A DNA stretch of 26,998 bases from a virus, in IMG/VR virus record IMGVR_UViG_3300032174_000019, positions 1 to 26,998 of that record. One strand, 5' to 3'. Shown here one piece after another: positions 2,824 to 8,085 of this stretch (position 1 is the stretch's first letter; the number at the start of each line of letters is the position of its first letter). The notes below the pieces were generated by a model, which worked only from the letters and a program-made list of their open reading frames with translations, was not told the origin of the DNA and did no database searches. The position numbers were made by a program, and so were the translations under genes.

Positions 2824-3005
2824 AGTGTCTATTCTTTTTATCATTCTTATTGGTTGCGCAATCATGTTCATTAAATCTCAGGAAGACAGCAACCGGCGCT
2901 GAGGTAGTTGATATTCGCCTCCCAAATGAATCAATTAGCTTCGAGATACCTGAAGAAACCGCCCAAACGAAGAGTAGCCAGATGAAGACGAATATAGCAA
3001 AATAA
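2820..3005 (+). CDS. Small lipoprotein-like protein, 61 aa
   Basis: The first 16 residues form a short signal sequence (MKCLFFLSFLLV) ending in AQSC, a plausible lipobox with Cys16 as the lipidated residue. The mature part is about 45 residues and polar. The gene overlaps the preceding lipoprotein-like gene by four bases (ATGA), and the two are probably made together. It is the last plus-strand gene before the leftward early block, only 9 bases from the convergent gene's stop. An o-spanin or a superinfection-exclusion lipoprotein are options, neither shown. Confidence 0.55.
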   Translation: MKCLFFLSFLLVAQSCSLNLRKTATGAEVVDIRLPNESISFEIPEETAQTKSSQMKTNIAK

Positions 3006-3014
3006 TATCTCTCT

Positions 3015-3266
3015 CTATTCATTTGAGCTTTTTTTGGTCATAGCTTGTTTCCAAAGCGCTATCATCTTTTCCATATCAACTCTAACCTCACCGTTGTAAT
3101 GAATCTCAAGTTTATCGATATGTCGAGCATTCCATTTTGCAGGCCCAGATCCCACTCCTATCTTATCAAAGCCCTTACCAAATGCCCATTCGCAAAAACA
3201 ATCACTTTGATCATAATCCCCTTCAAATAAGATTACGACATAAGACCTCATGTTATTTACAGTCAT
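3015..3266 (-). CDS. Hypothetical early protein, 83 aa
   Basis: Not recognised. The start is set at the ATG ending at 3266 because AAAGGAGG lies four bases upstream; a longer reading to 3305 would bypass this strong site and overlap the upstream gene. The product is compact and mixed alpha/beta in appearance, with a Cys-x-Cys (DCFCEW) and a Gly-rich centre (FGKGFDKIGVGSGP). It is the most distal gene of the leftward early block. Confidence 0.6.
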   Translation of the reverse strand: MTVNNMRSYVVILFEGDYDQSDCFCEWAFGKGFDKIGVGSGPAKWNARHIDKLEIHYNGEVRVDMEKMIALWKQAMTKKSSNE

Positions 3267-3279
3267 TTGACCTCCTTTG

Positions 3280-3546
3280 TTAAGGAGCTTTTTTCTGCTC
3301 CTCATATATTTTATAGGAGCTATAAATGTAGTCTACTTTTTCGCAGGCTTTCCCGCAATGTACACAATGGTCGGTCTCTACATTCTCAGTATCGCATCGA
3401 GCACAGAACCAACTTGGGTAATTTATGATCTCTTCAGAGCTCCTCACATGATATGAAGAGCGCTCATCGAATCCGTCAGTCAAGTATAAAAAGACCCAGG
3501 GAGCGATCCCTCCAAGAGTCAGTAAAGATAAAATCAAACAACGCAT
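3280..3546 (-). CDS. Membrane-anchored zinc-ribbon protein, 88 aa
   Basis: Residues 3-22 form one hydrophobic segment, either a signal anchor or an uncleaved signal. Two CxxC pairs follow (C48/C51 and C61/C64), spaced as in a treble-clef or rubredoxin-like zinc ribbon. The start at 3546 has GGAGGT five bases upstream. The combination suggests a small inner-membrane protein carrying a metal-bound knuckle. Which side of the membrane the ribbon faces and its partner are not visible. Confidence 0.6.
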   Translation of the reverse strand: MRCLILSLLTLGGIAPWVFLYLTDGFDERSSYHVRSSEEIINYPSWFCARCDTENVETDHCVHCGKACEKVDYIYSSYKIYEEQKKAP

Positions 3547-3565: not shown

Positions 3566-3639
3566 CGTCGGATCTAGGATTCGAACCTAGGACATCAAAA
3601 TTAACAGTTTTGCGCTCTAACCAACTGAGCTAATCCGAC
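3566..3639 (-). tRNA. tRNA-Asn (anticodon GTT)
   Basis: The reverse complement folds into a full cloverleaf of 74 nt. The acceptor stem GTCGGAT pairs with ATCCGAC, the D stem is GCTC/GAGC, the anticodon stem CAAAA/TTTTG encloses the loop CTGTTAA with anticodon GTT, and the T arm is CTAGG-TTCGAAT-CCTAG. The discriminator base is G, as usual for tRNA-Asn. The CCA end is not encoded. It lies in the leftward early block between two small genes. Confidence 0.95.
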
Positions 3640-3645
3640 CGATCT

Positions 3646-3843
3646 TTAATTAAAAACAGGACCAGGCCACCAATAAATATCCTCATTGGGCTCTAATTTG
3701 TCTGATGATTTACCAAAGCATATATGAAATTCATCGTCACTAACTTTGTATAAAAAACAACATCCCAAAATTTTGTGAAAGGCCAGATAAACTTTTTCAT
3801 CTGGCGGTAACTGGTCTTTAATGTGTATCAGCTTCATTTCCAT
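3646..3843 (-). CDS. DUF551-like small phage protein, 65 aa
   Basis: The product starts MEMKLIHIKDQLPPDEKVY and ends near IYWWPGPVF. This resembles the DUF551 pattern of early phage proteins, in which a 'W-I-x-V-x-x-x-L-P' start and a 'HWMPLPEPP'-like end frame a short beta-rich domain. The function of that family is unknown. The start is taken at the ATG ending at 3843, preceded by GGTGAG; an in-frame ATG at 3864 would overlap the upstream gene by 17 bases. Confidence 0.5.
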   Translation of the reverse strand: MEMKLIHIKDQLPPDEKVYLAFHKILGCCFLYKVSDDEFHICFGKSSDKLEPNEDIYWWPGPVFN

Positions 3844-4850: not shown

Positions 4851-5133
4851 TGTTTTTCTCCTCTGTCTTTTCTTTGATAGCTTTCTCCATTTCCGTTTTC
4901 ACGAATTCAAGGAAATAATCAACATTGTCCTTGACTATTTTGAGGTCAGGACAAGAGTGTGCCAAAACTGTCAAAGTTGTGCAGAGAAAAAGTCTCATAT
5001 GAACCTCATCGGGATCGCTATAACGAGCGGCCTCTTTTTCTAAAACATTTAGAATTCTCAAAACAGAATCCTGCACGTTACTTTCATTGCATTCTAGCTT
5101 TTTTAAGGCAGGTGCATATTTATTTGGTTTCAC
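4831..5133 (-). CDS. Hypothetical early protein, about 100 aa (GTG start)
   Basis: Not recognised. A GTG at 5133 with AGAGG about six bases upstream is preferred over a TTG at 5151, which lies deep in the upstream gene. The product is helical and charged: a central segment with several leucines (RILNVLEKEAARY; RLFLCTTLTVLAH) and a C-terminal Lys/Glu-rich tail. It overlaps both neighbours by 14-20 bases, the usual packing of this early block. Confidence 0.5.
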   Translation of the reverse strand: MKPNKYAPALKKLECNESNVQDSVLRILNVLEKEAARYSDPDEVHMRLFLCTTLTVLAHSCPDLKIVKDNVDYFLEFVKTEMEKAIKEKTEEKNNEEPST

Positions 5134-5479
5134 TTTTAACCTCTTTTTCAATAAGAATTGGAAATTTAACGGGATTTTTTTTGCATAGAATGCGATTCAT
5201 AATAAAGTCGGGAGCGGTCTTGAGAAGTATATCAAAGAATTGTCTTTTCTCATCTTCATCAATAAAATTCACTAATGGATATCGCGTGTGCTTGTTTTTG
5301 ATGTTATCATATCCAGGTTTATTGGGCAATTTGATGTGCCACATGTCGTTCTTGTATGTGACACAAACTCCCAGAATCTCGATGCGATACTCTGGGAGTT
5401 TCACTCTCATGGTGCCATGCATAAAATCCCTCTGCTTATCCCAAACAGTGGGGTAAAACTCTATAATTTCTAGCTTCAT
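5120..5479 (-). CDS. SpoVG-like early protein, 119 aa
   Basis: The order of elements (MKLEIIEFYPT start, a strand pair MRVKLPEYRIEILGVCV, then WHIKLPNKPGYD, RYPLVNFIDEDEKRQFF and a final helix) resembles SpoVG-type proteins found in several phages as small nucleic-acid-binding early proteins. Cellular SpoVG binds DNA or RNA and affects septation and gene expression. The similarity is by pattern only. AAGGA precedes the ATG. Its position just downstream of the replication gene and a small neighbour fits a replication or regulatory accessory role. Confidence 0.4.
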   Translation of the reverse strand: MKLEIIEFYPTVWDKQRDFMHGTMRVKLPEYRIEILGVCVTYKNDMWHIKLPNKPGYDNIKNKHTRYPLVNFIDEDEKRQFFDILLKTAPDFIMNRILCKKNPVKFPILIEKEVKSETK

Positions 5480-5500
5480 TCACAATCCTTGATTACGTAA

Positions 5501-5860
5501 TTAATTCGGTTTAAAATAAATAAATGGCCTATTAGTTTCTTCTTTGCTTGTAACTTCGGCTTCTTTTTTTGACGATTCGTAATTATTTTTCAATATATCA
5601 GCTATTTTATATTCTTTGTGTGCTTCTTTATCGGCAATTTTTCGTGCGTTATATAAAACCTCTAAAACTGCATTTAATTGAGATTTTGCTTGCACAAGTC
5701 TATGCATGAGATGTCTTGCATAGGTTTCCCAATCTTCTTGAGTTTTTACCCATTTAGGAGGCACCGAATTTAGATTACGAAACATATCGTCCTCTCTCTC
5801 GTCTAGTAAATTTTGTTCTTCTTCGGATAATTCCATAAAATAATCATTCATAAATTCCAT
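5501..5860 (-). CDS. Hypothetical acidic helical protein, about 119 aa
   Basis: Not recognised. The protein is highly charged, with an acidic N-terminus (ELSEEEQNLLDERED) and a long helical region (about 50-95). The ATG ending at 5860 has AGAGGA eight bases upstream and is preferred here; an ATG at 5884 overlaps the replication gene stop as ATGA and would add eight residues. Its place directly behind the replication initiator suggests a replication partner such as a helicase loader, but no motif for that is seen. Confidence 0.5.
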   Translation of the reverse strand: MEFMNDYFMELSEEEQNLLDEREDDMFRNLNSVPPKWVKTQEDWETYARHLMHRLVQAKSQLNAVLEVLYNARKIADKEAHKEYKIADILKNNYESSKKEAEVTSKEETNRPFIYFKPN

Positions 5861-5880
5861 TTCCAAATTCCTCTTTTTGT

Positions 5881-6891
5881 TCATTTGTTAAAACTTTTTT
5901 TCCATTGATTTAAAACTGCACTAAATTGCTCGCAAGGCATATCATAGACTAGGCACTCAGTTTTGCTTCCTCTGAAAAAGTAGACTTTGTCGCTTTCGGC
6001 GGCAATGCTTTTTTGGCCTCGGTCCTTAGGCGACATTGCGAATACTTCATTTTCTAATTGTTTTGCCTCCAGTTGATTTTTCATCATTTCCGGTATGGAT
6101 ACACCACCTTTACTTTTTTGGCCAATCCCAGGTCCATTAGGATTCGAAATTTTGGCCTTCTTGGAATCCGACATTCGATTGTAATAAGTTTCCATGGCTT
6201 TGGGATAATTGGCATAGCCTTGGGTGCGACTGGTCATGCAATAGGCATTTACGTCATCTATGAGCCGTTTGACCATGGGCTTGCCCCATTTTGTGATCAT
6301 TTCGGCATGTTCTGGATCCTTGAGCTTGACATACTCGCCATAAGGTTTTGTTTGTTCTGAAGGATTAATTGAAGGAAGCGCCTCGCGCGTCTCTCTCTCT
6401 ATATTCTTAATGGGTTCTTCTTTATGCTCGTTTGGCGAGGTACCCTCCCTCGCCACGCGAGGTACCCCTCCCCCGTTTGGCGAGGTACCCCTATTCGTTC
6501 TGTAATGATCTCCATTAATTCTCCAAATATCGACTATTTTTATTAAATTTGAATCTTTACTACCATCGGGTTTATTTCTATGAATAATTTCTATCAAACA
6601 TCCTTTAATAAATAAATCCTTTGTACTAAGTTCCTGTAAGCATTGCCTCAATGTTGTAATTCCAATACCAATCCTATGAGCTAAATGTTTCATGGTCATC
6701 CAACATCGACCAGCTTCTCCTGTGATTCGCTTGATATGAAAATAAACAGCAAGCTGAATCGGATTTAAAATTTCTCCAATAATATTTGGAATCTCGGTGC
6801 GGAAGTGATGATCTGGATGTTCTTGTACGAACTCTGCGTTTTCTTCAGACATAAAATGCCTTGGCAACATGGTGTAGAAACCATGCATCAT
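5881..6891 (-). CDS. Replication initiator / replisome organiser-like protein, about 336 aa
   Basis: Residues about 40-95 form a winged-helix-like domain (ILNPIQLAVYFHIKR ... MTMKHLAHRIGIGITTLRQ) typical of phage replication initiators. A low-complexity linker follows. Near 190-250 is the pattern YGEYVKLKDPEHAEM ... YANYPKAMETYYNR, shared with many phage replisome-organiser C-termini. The expected role is to bind origin repeats and bring in host helicase. Iteron-like repeats lie inside the linker-coding DNA, as in lambda O. The start is ATG 6891 or 6888, with only a weak AGAAAG site and an 18-bp hairpin covering the start codon, which suggests translational control. Confidence 0.7.
   Translation of the reverse strand: MMHGFYTMLPRHFMSEENAEFVQEHPDHHFRTEIPNIIGEILNPIQLAVYFHIKRITGEAGRCWMTMKHLAHRIGIGITTLRQCLQELSTKDLFIKGCLIEIIHRNKPDGSKDSNLIKIVDIWRINGDHYRTNRGTSPNGGGVPRVAREGTSPNEHKEEPIKNIERETREALPSINPSEQTKPYGEYVKLKDPEHAEMITKWGKPMVKRLIDDVNAYCMTSRTQGYANYPKAMETYYNRMSDSKKAKISNPNGPGIGQKSKGGVSIPEMMKNQLEAKQLENEVFAMSPKDRGQKSIAAESDKVYFFRGSKTECLVYDMPCEQFSAVLNQWKKSFNK
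6429..6490. repeat. Iteron-like repeats, candidate replication origin inside the initiator gene
   Basis: The core GCGAGGTACCC occurs three times, at 6435-6445, 6457-6467 and 6480-6490 (spacings 22 and 23 bp, about two helical turns). Two copies extend to CGTTTGGCGAGGTACCC (6429-6445 and 6474-6490). Outer copies encode GTSPN, but the middle one is read in another frame (GVPRVA), so the DNA rather than the protein is conserved. An AT-rich tract (about 6491-6630) adjoins and could be the unwinding element. Confidence 0.65.
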
Positions 6892-6958
6892 CAAGACATT
6901 CTTTCTGCTTGCAGCAATTGAGTTTTATGCTACAATGGTGAACGTCTTGATGACGCAT
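6883..6958 (-). promoter_or_regulatory. 18-bp leader hairpin covering the replication gene start
   Basis: In the leftward transcript ATGCGTCATCAAGACGTT (6958-6941) can pair with AATGTCTTGATGATGCAT (6900-6883) over all 18 positions, 16 Watson-Crick and two G-U, around a 40-nt loop. The second arm contains the start codons of the replication gene, and the weak AGAAAG ribosome site lies at the loop edge. On the plus strand the same two positions would be A-C mismatches, so the fold favours the minus-strand RNA. Confidence 0.65.
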
Positions 6959-6961
6959 ATT

Positions 6962-6997
6962 CGAGCTACCCCTTCCACAAAACAAAAGGGTAGCTCG
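6962..6997 (-). promoter_or_regulatory. 10-bp hairpin in the replication gene leader
   Basis: CGAGCTACCC (6962-6971) and GGGTAGCTCG (6988-6997) are perfect inverted repeats around a 16-nt loop. The structure lies just downstream of the exonuclease gene and three bases before the 18-bp hairpin. No T-run follows on either strand, so it is not a standard intrinsic terminator. An RNA stability, processing or attenuator element is more likely. Confidence 0.6.
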
Positions 6998-7030
6998 TTC
7001 ACTTTTCGACTGTAAACTTGACTTTATTTT

Positions 7031-7924
7031 TCAGCCACTACTTTCTTTTTCGATCTCAATTTTCCAGCTCACACTAGACTCTCGACGGTATTTTTCTAAG
7101 TCAACACCTATCAATTCAGGCACTTTTGAGTAGTCAACTAGCCCCTTTCTTTTTGACATTTTGACTCTCACGCCATCCCACCTGACATTCCTGCTACCAG
7201 CTAACTCAATCATCACATTCTGAGTACGCTCAAGAGCTTCCATTCGAGTCTTGAGCATAGCCTGAGCCTCTTTCACAGCCGCCCATTCGCGCTTGTAAAT
7301 TCCATTGAGATCAGCAAGCTTTGGCTCCTCTGCAAACTCGTCCTCAGATAGTTCTGGAGGCTGCATAATAAGCAGTCGCTCGTAAAATTCGAGCTCCTTC
7401 TTAACCATATCTGCAATGTACTCATCGTTCCTGACGCACCTGATGCTGTATATCTCATCGAAAAGCTTGTCATAAACGTCATACATCACATACTCCACCT
7501 CGGCACACTTGATCTGGTGCTGAAGCTGTGGATAGTAATGCTTAGGGATAATGCCCCGCCTAGCTAAATCTAGATCGGTACTTCCTGGCGTCTTGATCTC
7601 GTGTATCTCCCCACCTTCGGTCATCCCATCTAGACTAGCGATCATCCACGGATACTGATTGCTTTCAATTACACATGGTGCTAGCATAACACCGTACTTT
7701 AGCCTCATGCATTCTCTAGCTAGGCTTTCGGACTCTTTCCCATTTCGCATAGCTGGCGTCACTGGATTGATTCGTAAGCCTACTTTTTCCTCATATACAC
7801 TCTTTGCAGTGCCCCACGGGGATACTCCCATGATCTTAGGGGCATCGCTCGCACCAATACGCATGGCGCGATATTCATGCCATTCAGGCGTGTCCTGCTC
7901 TAAGTTGATTTTTTTGTAGGACAA
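7031..7924 (-). CDS. YqaJ-family phage exonuclease / recombinase (PD-(D/E)XK)
   Basis: The 297-residue product carries the YqaJ pattern: WHEYR near 15-19, RIGASDAPKIMG (22-33), NGKESE with Glu64, ASLDG with Asp99, EIKTPG with Glu109 and Lys111, and QLQHQ (133-137) that completes the nuclease core. It is a 5'-3' double-strand DNA exonuclease of the lambda Exo type, acting with the annealing protein encoded just upstream in the same block. The start is a TTG at 7924 with GGAGG five bases upstream; the first ATG would remove residues 1-20, including the conserved start of the domain. Confidence 0.85.
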   Translation of the reverse strand: MSYKKINLEQDTPEWHEYRAMRIGASDAPKIMGVSPWGTAKSVYEEKVGLRINPVTPAMRNGKESESLARECMRLKYGVMLAPCVIESNQYPWMIASLDGMTEGGEIHEIKTPGSTDLDLARRGIIPKHYYPQLQHQIKCAEVEYVMYDVYDKLFDEIYSIRCVRNDEYIADMVKKELEFYERLLIMQPPELSEDEFAEEPKLADLNGIYKREWAAVKEAQAMLKTRMEALERTQNVMIELAGSRNVRWDGVRVKMSKRKGLVDYSKVPELIGVDLEKYRRESSVSWKIEIEKESSG

Positions 7925-8085
7925 TTGAGCCTCCGTAAATATTCGTTATCAAACTTCTCTTTAATAATTATATTGGCGAGAATGTGGGCTAATTCACGCA
8001 ACTTCTCTTCATTAGTGCGGAACATCTCAAGATGCTCGCGCCACTTCTCCTCCACTAACTGGAGTATGTAACTTGAATTTGTCAT
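7900..8085 (-). CDS. Small hypothetical protein between recombination genes, 61 aa
   Basis: Not recognised. A short, probably all-helical, charged protein (MTNSSYILQLVEEKWREHLE ...). GAGGGAG lies eight bases before the ATG, which overlaps the stop of the annealing-protein gene as ATGA; its 3' end overlaps the exonuclease gene by 25 bases. This tight wedge between the two recombination genes suggests a co-made helper or inhibitor protein, with no direct evidence. Confidence 0.55.
   Translation of the reverse strand: MTNSSYILQLVEEKWREHLEMFRTNEEKLRELAHILANIIIKEKFDNEYLRRLNCPTKKST

Follow-up and report, generated by a model that had tools for sequence, protein, structure and literature searches.

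The locus described here raises the question of why a phage replication initiator gene is preceded by two strong hairpins, and whether these control synthesis of the initiator. The sequence that was analysed (the window) is a linear virus record of 26,998 bases, probably a fragment of a P22-portal-type phage, and the profile search matched portal PF16510 in it at E 1e-47. Its leftward early genes encode, in order, an Erf annealing protein, a YqaJ/RecE exonuclease (exo) and the replication initiator (rep), with the double hairpin located between the exo stop codon (7031-7033) and the initiator gene. A tRNA-Asn gene (anticodon gtt, 3566-3639, minus strand) is also present among the leftward genes.

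The initiator gene and its start

The following features define the replication region:

5881-6852, minus strand: replication initiator gene (rep), lambda-O-like, with an HTH_36 region (phrog_270 E 3.6e-6; HTH_36 E 9e-5, below the cut-off)
7031-7924, minus strand: YqaJ/RecE-type exonuclease gene (exo), from the profile search, on the same strand as rep and upstream of it
6859-6862, minus strand: ribosome-binding site AAGG of rep, with a 6-nt spacer to ATG 6850-6852
6853-6863, minus strand: ribosome-site zone CAAGGCATTTT, which can pair over 11 bp with 6892-6902
6429-6490, no strand assigned: three 17-nt iterons, candidate origin, inside rep

The HTH_36 domain scored above the cut-off in four of the six rep relatives scanned and below it in the window protein. 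Searches with the region gave few leads. Window DNA 5881-7931 had no match among named phages, and neither had the window rep at E 1e-5 or the rep of relative L087. As a single-protein query the window rep matched nothing in viral contigs, the rep queries matched nothing in genome contigs, and a protein search at E 0.1 found no match in plasmids, hence no related plasmid initiator. With the threshold relaxed to E 1, the window rep had only weak matches (best E 0.1), mostly annotated as O-like. The iterons consist of CGTTTGGCGAGGTACCC and a variant, spaced 22-23 nt, and their position within rep is similar to that of the lambda origin inside O.

The rep open frame begins at TTG 6894, which is within the 3' arm of the second hairpin. 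In the alignment, rep relatives start 12-34 residues ahead of a conserved T[EI]IPNII block, each with a ribosome-site match upstream, and ATG 6850-6852 of the window is located 18 residues ahead of this block. Because of the AAGG 6 nt upstream and the start positions in the aligned relatives, ATG 6850-6852 is the probable start of rep, and a start upstream of it may also be in use. This modifies the preliminary description, in which the start codons were buried by the hairpin and a strong ribosome site was lacking. The codons TTG/ATG/ATG at 6886-6894 do form part of the 3' arm, whereas ATG 6850-6852 is outside, and its AAGG lies about 20 nt beyond the hairpin. Since ATG 6850-6852 has this AAGG and agrees with the starts in relatives, the weak ribosome site is a property of the upstream codons only.

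Structure of the rep leader

The leader contains two hairpins separated by three bases:

6962-6997, minus strand: hairpin 1, 10 Watson-Crick pairs, 14 pairs with two G-U, loop of 8
6940-6959 and 6882-6901, minus strand: arms of hairpin 2, 20 contiguous pairs of which three are G-U, including the outermost, loop of 38
6940-6958, minus strand: 5' arm of hairpin 2, candidate pre-emptor
6883-6901, minus strand: 3' arm of hairpin 2, predicted to pair either with the 5' arm, which gives the open state, or with the ribosome site, which gives the closed state
6909-6935, minus strand: inner stem of 8 bp within the hairpin 2 loop

A 10-bp stem followed three bases later by a longer stem that includes start codons had been noticed from the sequence, and both are present as placed. 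The minus-strand RNA of 6870-7005 folds at -63.9 kcal/mol, against -30.3 +/- 3.7 kcal/mol for shuffled sequences (z -9.0), and none of 200 shuffles was as stable; the plus strand of the leader folds at z -5.5. A scan of the window for stems of at least 14 pairs with loops of at most 70, on both strands, gave three matches, two of which were at the rep leader.

The observation that the non-Watson-Crick positions are G-U in the minus-strand RNA holds for the window stems. Over the set of related leaders, with L091 and L092 left out of this count, 29 G-U mismatches stand against 37 A-C and there is no strand bias, so that the bias in the window may be local. Strand bias was therefore dropped as evidence for an RNA acting on the sense strand only. 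We also dropped a loop of about 40 nt that recurred in stems of the 60 terminase relatives, as these stems occur in varied gene contexts. A scan of viral contigs for the arm pattern returned 19 stretches, none of which resembled the rep leader region on inspection.

Predicted switch at the ribosome site

The 3' arm AGAATGTCTTG can also pair over 11 bp with CAAGGCATTTT, the zone that contains the ribosome site, and this pairing competes with hairpin 2. The duplex has a predicted energy of -12.0 to -13.3 kcal/mol, and complementarity of this extent was rare in the window when the arm was shuffled (p 0.014). By inspection, it accounts for one G-U pair of hairpin 2, whose U has an A as its other partner in the ribosome-site zone. 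In the free window leader, taken from the exo stop, the predicted openness of the ribosome site was 0.61, and it fell to 0.001 when either 6944-6958 alone or 6940-6999 was blocked. Values for the full leader, the leader without the 5' arm and the leader without both arms were 0.55, 0.00 and 0.50, respectively. Of the 249 control genes taken from these phages, only 1.6% switched as strongly as the window. Hairpin 2 thus appears, in these folding models, to hold the ribosome site open, and loss of the hairpin to close it. We have good confidence in a ribosome-site switch in the window.

A candidate antisense RNA

On the opposite strand of the leader, three features are predicted:

6909-6936, plus strand: candidate antisense promoter TTGCAG-16-TACAAT, its -10 element preceded by TG (shuffle p 0.005-0.04)
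6962-6997, plus strand: antisense terminator, identical to hairpin 1, with a weak tail TTCACTTTT
6943-7006, plus strand: predicted antisense RNA of about 63 nt, both ends approximate, deduced from promoter, terminator and folding

TTGCAG-16-TACAAT is the best promoter-like site of the leader, with shuffle p 0.04 for the whole region and 0.005-0.007 for the loop interval, as scored with an E. coli sigma-70 model, which may not suit the host of this phage. The same scans recovered pO and tO of lambda, which served as yardstick for promoters and terminators. The loop of about 40 nt, earlier viewed as a possible sensor or antisense target, appears instead to be where the antisense RNA has its promoter. 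With a promoter-like site in this loop and hairpin 1 as terminator, the RNA of about 63 nt would copy just the 5' arm; as predicted, it copies 16 of the 19 positions of this arm and then runs into hairpin 1. A full antisense partner is calculated to bind the 5' arm at -32.2 kcal/mol, compared to -28.6 kcal/mol for the 3' arm. The predicted start is about 91 nt from the rep ATG and the predicted end is near 7006, before the exo stop at 7031-7033. We place moderate to high confidence in a predicted antisense RNA gene in the leader.

Leaders of related phages

Relatives of the initiator were obtained from alignment-based scans of viral contigs and from the records of 44 of the 60 terminase relatives. 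The set comprises 14 distinct leaders, including that of the window, all from uncultivated phages; L089 was dropped because its leader repeats that of L091, and lambda (L127) was included in the scans for comparison but in none of the counts. Leaders of 249 control genes from these phages and 40 intergenic regions served as controls. The tests were devised after the leaders had been seen. The start of L063 was corrected by 6 nt for the comparison with control leaders and for the promoter value at -95 to -60, and is 6 nt too early in the results on terminators, intergenic controls, the interval scan and arm complementarity. By inspection, the leader sequences are dissimilar among relatives and do not align, the exception being CTAGCTCTTTGTT, which is common to L083 and L087.

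The preliminary description had staked the structure on its presence in relatives, and 11 of the 14 leaders, the window's included, are unusually structured (z <= -3.15), against 13 of the 249 control leaders and 5 of the 40 intergenic controls. The three others are L063 (z -2.77), L090 (-1.82) and L092 (-1.91). In 11 of the 14, the distance from the end of the long inverted repeat to the ATG is 22 to 51 nt, with L088, L090 and L094 as exceptions. Confidence in a structured leader with a recurring architecture is high.

Removal of the upstream part closed the ribosome site (openness <= 0.05) in six of the 14 leaders (window, L083, L062, L085, L093 and L107), compared to 12 of the 249 control leaders and 4 of the 40 intergenic regions. 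L089/L091 also switch in the truncation test, and no switch was found in L086, L088, L090, L092 and L094. Complementarity between the 3' arm and the ribosome site exceeded that of arm-shuffles over the 14 leaders (combined p 4e-4), and individually in four of them (p <= 0.02 for the window, L083, L085 and L107). With a strict off-on switch score, the leader class was no different from the controls (p 0.32), because the closed state already wins at equilibrium in several leaders. As a property of the class, the ribosome-site switch is uneven among relatives and merits moderate confidence.

Antisense promoters starting at -95 to -60 from the ATG were enriched over dinucleotide shuffles of the 14 leaders (combined p 9.6e-5). 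This interval was picked after a first promoter scan, so that fairer tests are the value obtained without the window, p 8e-4, and a scan of ten intervals per strand, in which the only promoter peak was at the antisense -95 to -60 region. The corresponding values were 0.82 for the sense strand and 0.55 for the 40 intergenic controls. Antisense terminators were found in 11 of the 14 leaders, including the window with its weak tail, against 13 of 40 intergenic controls; sense-strand terminators were also commoner than in controls (6 of 14 vs 3 of 40).

Some records have peculiarities of their own. The initiator of L094 is apparently encoded in two pieces, an HTH part of 130 aa and a second frame of 285 aa (4935-5327 and 5427-6284), and L091 has a stop inside the range 2964-3340. 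Positions 77-146 of L076 with their flanks form an apparent very long inverted repeat, at about -195 kcal/mol per 190 nt, which is perhaps an assembly artefact.

Proposed mechanism and alternative explanations

We consider it probable, with some reserve, that the region is a switch through which an antisense RNA controls translation of the phage initiator. What computation on the sequences shows are the structures, the two alternative pairings of the 3' arm and the layout that recurs in relatives. In the rep mRNA (minus strand), the 5' arm would keep the 3' arm off the ribosome site, allowing translation of rep. A short plus-strand RNA would start in the loop of hairpin 2, copy the complement of the 5' arm and end at hairpin 1. 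Once made, this antisense RNA would bind the 5' arm and free the 3' arm, which would close the ribosome site and repress the initiator. More template would give more antisense RNA and less initiator, and such a circuit would limit copy number or shut replication down. Control of the initiator at the RNA level with an antisense partner, as first suggested from the window, is supported by the relatives, whereas burial of the start codon is not retained as the means.

The contiguous 20-bp stem with its inner hairpin, positioned between two cistrons, would also suit a site for RNase III or other processing, where cutting separates exo from rep or alters decay and no antisense RNA takes part; cutting the stem would free the 3' arm too. 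However, such a site does not predict the antisense promoter peak, the antisense terminators in 11 of 14 leaders or the pairing of the 3' arm with the ribosome site, and rep does not follow exo in L083, L085 and L107, which makes this reading unlikely. It is rather improbable that the leader fold is a by-product and that an antisense RNA similar to lambda OOP acts on the mRNA of the upstream gene or on replication itself. In lambda (NC_001416), OOP is a self-terminating antisense RNA between an upstream gene and the O initiator gene, which has iterons inside it. The order tO-oop-pO just ahead of O matches the layout here, and the rep ribosome site of L087, CTAACAACAGGAGTTATTATG, resembles CTATCAACAGGAGTCATTATG of lambda. 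According to the available part of PMC3349717, OOP acts on cII and is also required for a replication inhibition phenotype. On the other hand, OOP starts at the O start codon (predicted 10 nt from the ATG, vs about 91 nt in the window) and overlaps cII, while the RNA predicted for the window stops short of the exo stop codon without overlapping exo. The lambda O leader, tried as a positive control for structure, was negative (z +0.97, not unusually structured), and its ribosome site is nearly unchanging, without a switch like that of the window.

A two-state leader must have a trigger, and the loop could bind one. The leader might then be a sensor on the sense strand, such as a riboswitch, an attenuator or a protein-binding leader, with its arms flipped by a ligand or by the initiator itself. 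We regard this as very unlikely, since no Rfam family was found in the leader at the gathering score, other matches being at chance level, the loop sequence is not visibly common to relatives, and the terminator scan gave no sense-strand match in the window leader. The placement of a promoter between inverted arms might point to a DNA-level element, with the repeats acting as operator or origin structure or with an invertible promoter between 19-bp arms. A spacer of 38 bp is very short for inversion, though, the leader RNA of the window has G-U at the non-Watson-Crick stem positions, the iterons are elsewhere and neither an integrase nor a resolvase was found in the window, so that we give this explanation hardly any weight.

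Comparison with known systems

The proposed antisense-controlled switch has counterparts in plasmids. In the available part of PMC5703833, the staphylococcal plasmid pSK41 makes RNAI, an antisense RNA of about 83 nt that is transcribed against the rep leader some 100 nt ahead of the start. When RNAI binds, a stem-loop forms and the ribosome site of rep is hidden; the pSK41 origin is inside rep. The window shares with pSK41 the antisense RNA over the rep leader and the hidden ribosome site (both predicted), and the origin inside rep (candidate iterons). It differs in being a phage, whereas pSK41 is a plasmid with a Rep of the RepA_N family and an RNAI with two stem-loops. The same source, as far as available, describes the pSK41-related plasmid pPR9, whose initiator has at its N-terminus a pfam13730 (HTH_36) region akin to a replication protein of a phage. 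For pT181 it describes a pre-emptor that keeps the proximal arm of the stem-loop at the ribosome site engaged until the antisense RNA binds; the stem-loop thus freed mainly terminates transcription (PMC5703833). The predicted role of the 5' arm of the window follows this pre-emptor logic, but the window leader has no detected sense terminator.

As in both plasmids, the antisense promoter is predicted to lie in the rep leader and to point against the direction of rep. In 11 of the 14 leaders the antisense RNA would end at a terminator that is still part of the leader, with a weak tail in the window, and mutually exclusive structures, one of which hides the ribosome site, are predicted in the window (openness from 0.61 to 0.001) and unevenly in relatives. 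By analogy, the window may work like pT181/pSK41 control, a likeness of layout with which no membership is claimed. Extrachromosomal prophages of mycobacteria are maintained in plasmid form, with ParABS and with copy numbers that have been measured, and in the available part of PMC7157519 their origins are RepA-type or RNA-based, with no antisense-controlled O-like initiator seen. A phage switch of the kind proposed here was not found in the open-access literature searched.

Possible lifestyle of these phages

Replication as a phage-plasmid, if true, would account for a switch that sets copy number. In plasmids, control of initiator translation by antisense RNA is textbook knowledge, and lambda-like phages are thought to control replication mostly via transcription. 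Antisense limiting of DNA copies, best known from plasmids, would be unusual for such a phage if confirmed. Among the records searched, which may be fragments, an integrase (PF00589) was found in 3 of 30, a ParA-type ATPase (PF13614) in 4 of 30 and a resolvase (PF00239) in 2 of 15, namely those of L085 and L086. None of the three was found in the window, itself a fragment. The only rep relative with an integrase is L092, which is also among those with unstructured leaders. The ParA/MinD-type ATPase genes are located as follows:

7204-7857 of L002, minus strand: ParA/MinD-type ATPase
3743-4402 of L004, minus strand: ParA/MinD-type ATPase
7620-8333 of L050, minus strand: ParA/MinD-type ATPase
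5465-6163 of L107, plus strand: ParA/MinD-type ATPase

L002, L004 and L050 are close terminase relatives of the window and L107 is a rep relative; bearing ParA and without an integrase match, these four are candidate phage-plasmids. A phage-plasmid lifestyle is plausible. More tentatively, and with considerable doubt, a group of uncultivated P22-portal-type phages might be phage-plasmids in which an antisense RNA that diverges fast, together with a pre-emptor switch, keeps an O-like initiator at the copy number of a plasmid. Complete divergence of the leaders with retention of their architecture would be expected if antisense specificity sets incompatibility (immunity) groups. A two-state design that outlasts the leader sequence would connect phage replication control with plasmid incompatibility, and the two-state leader would serve as a signature for spotting phage-plasmids in metagenomes. 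In L004, a near-palindromic sequence TTGTACATAAAGTGTAT...GTACATTTTGTGTACAG is present at 3727-3767, at the 3' end of the ParA-type gene, and is a possible partition site.
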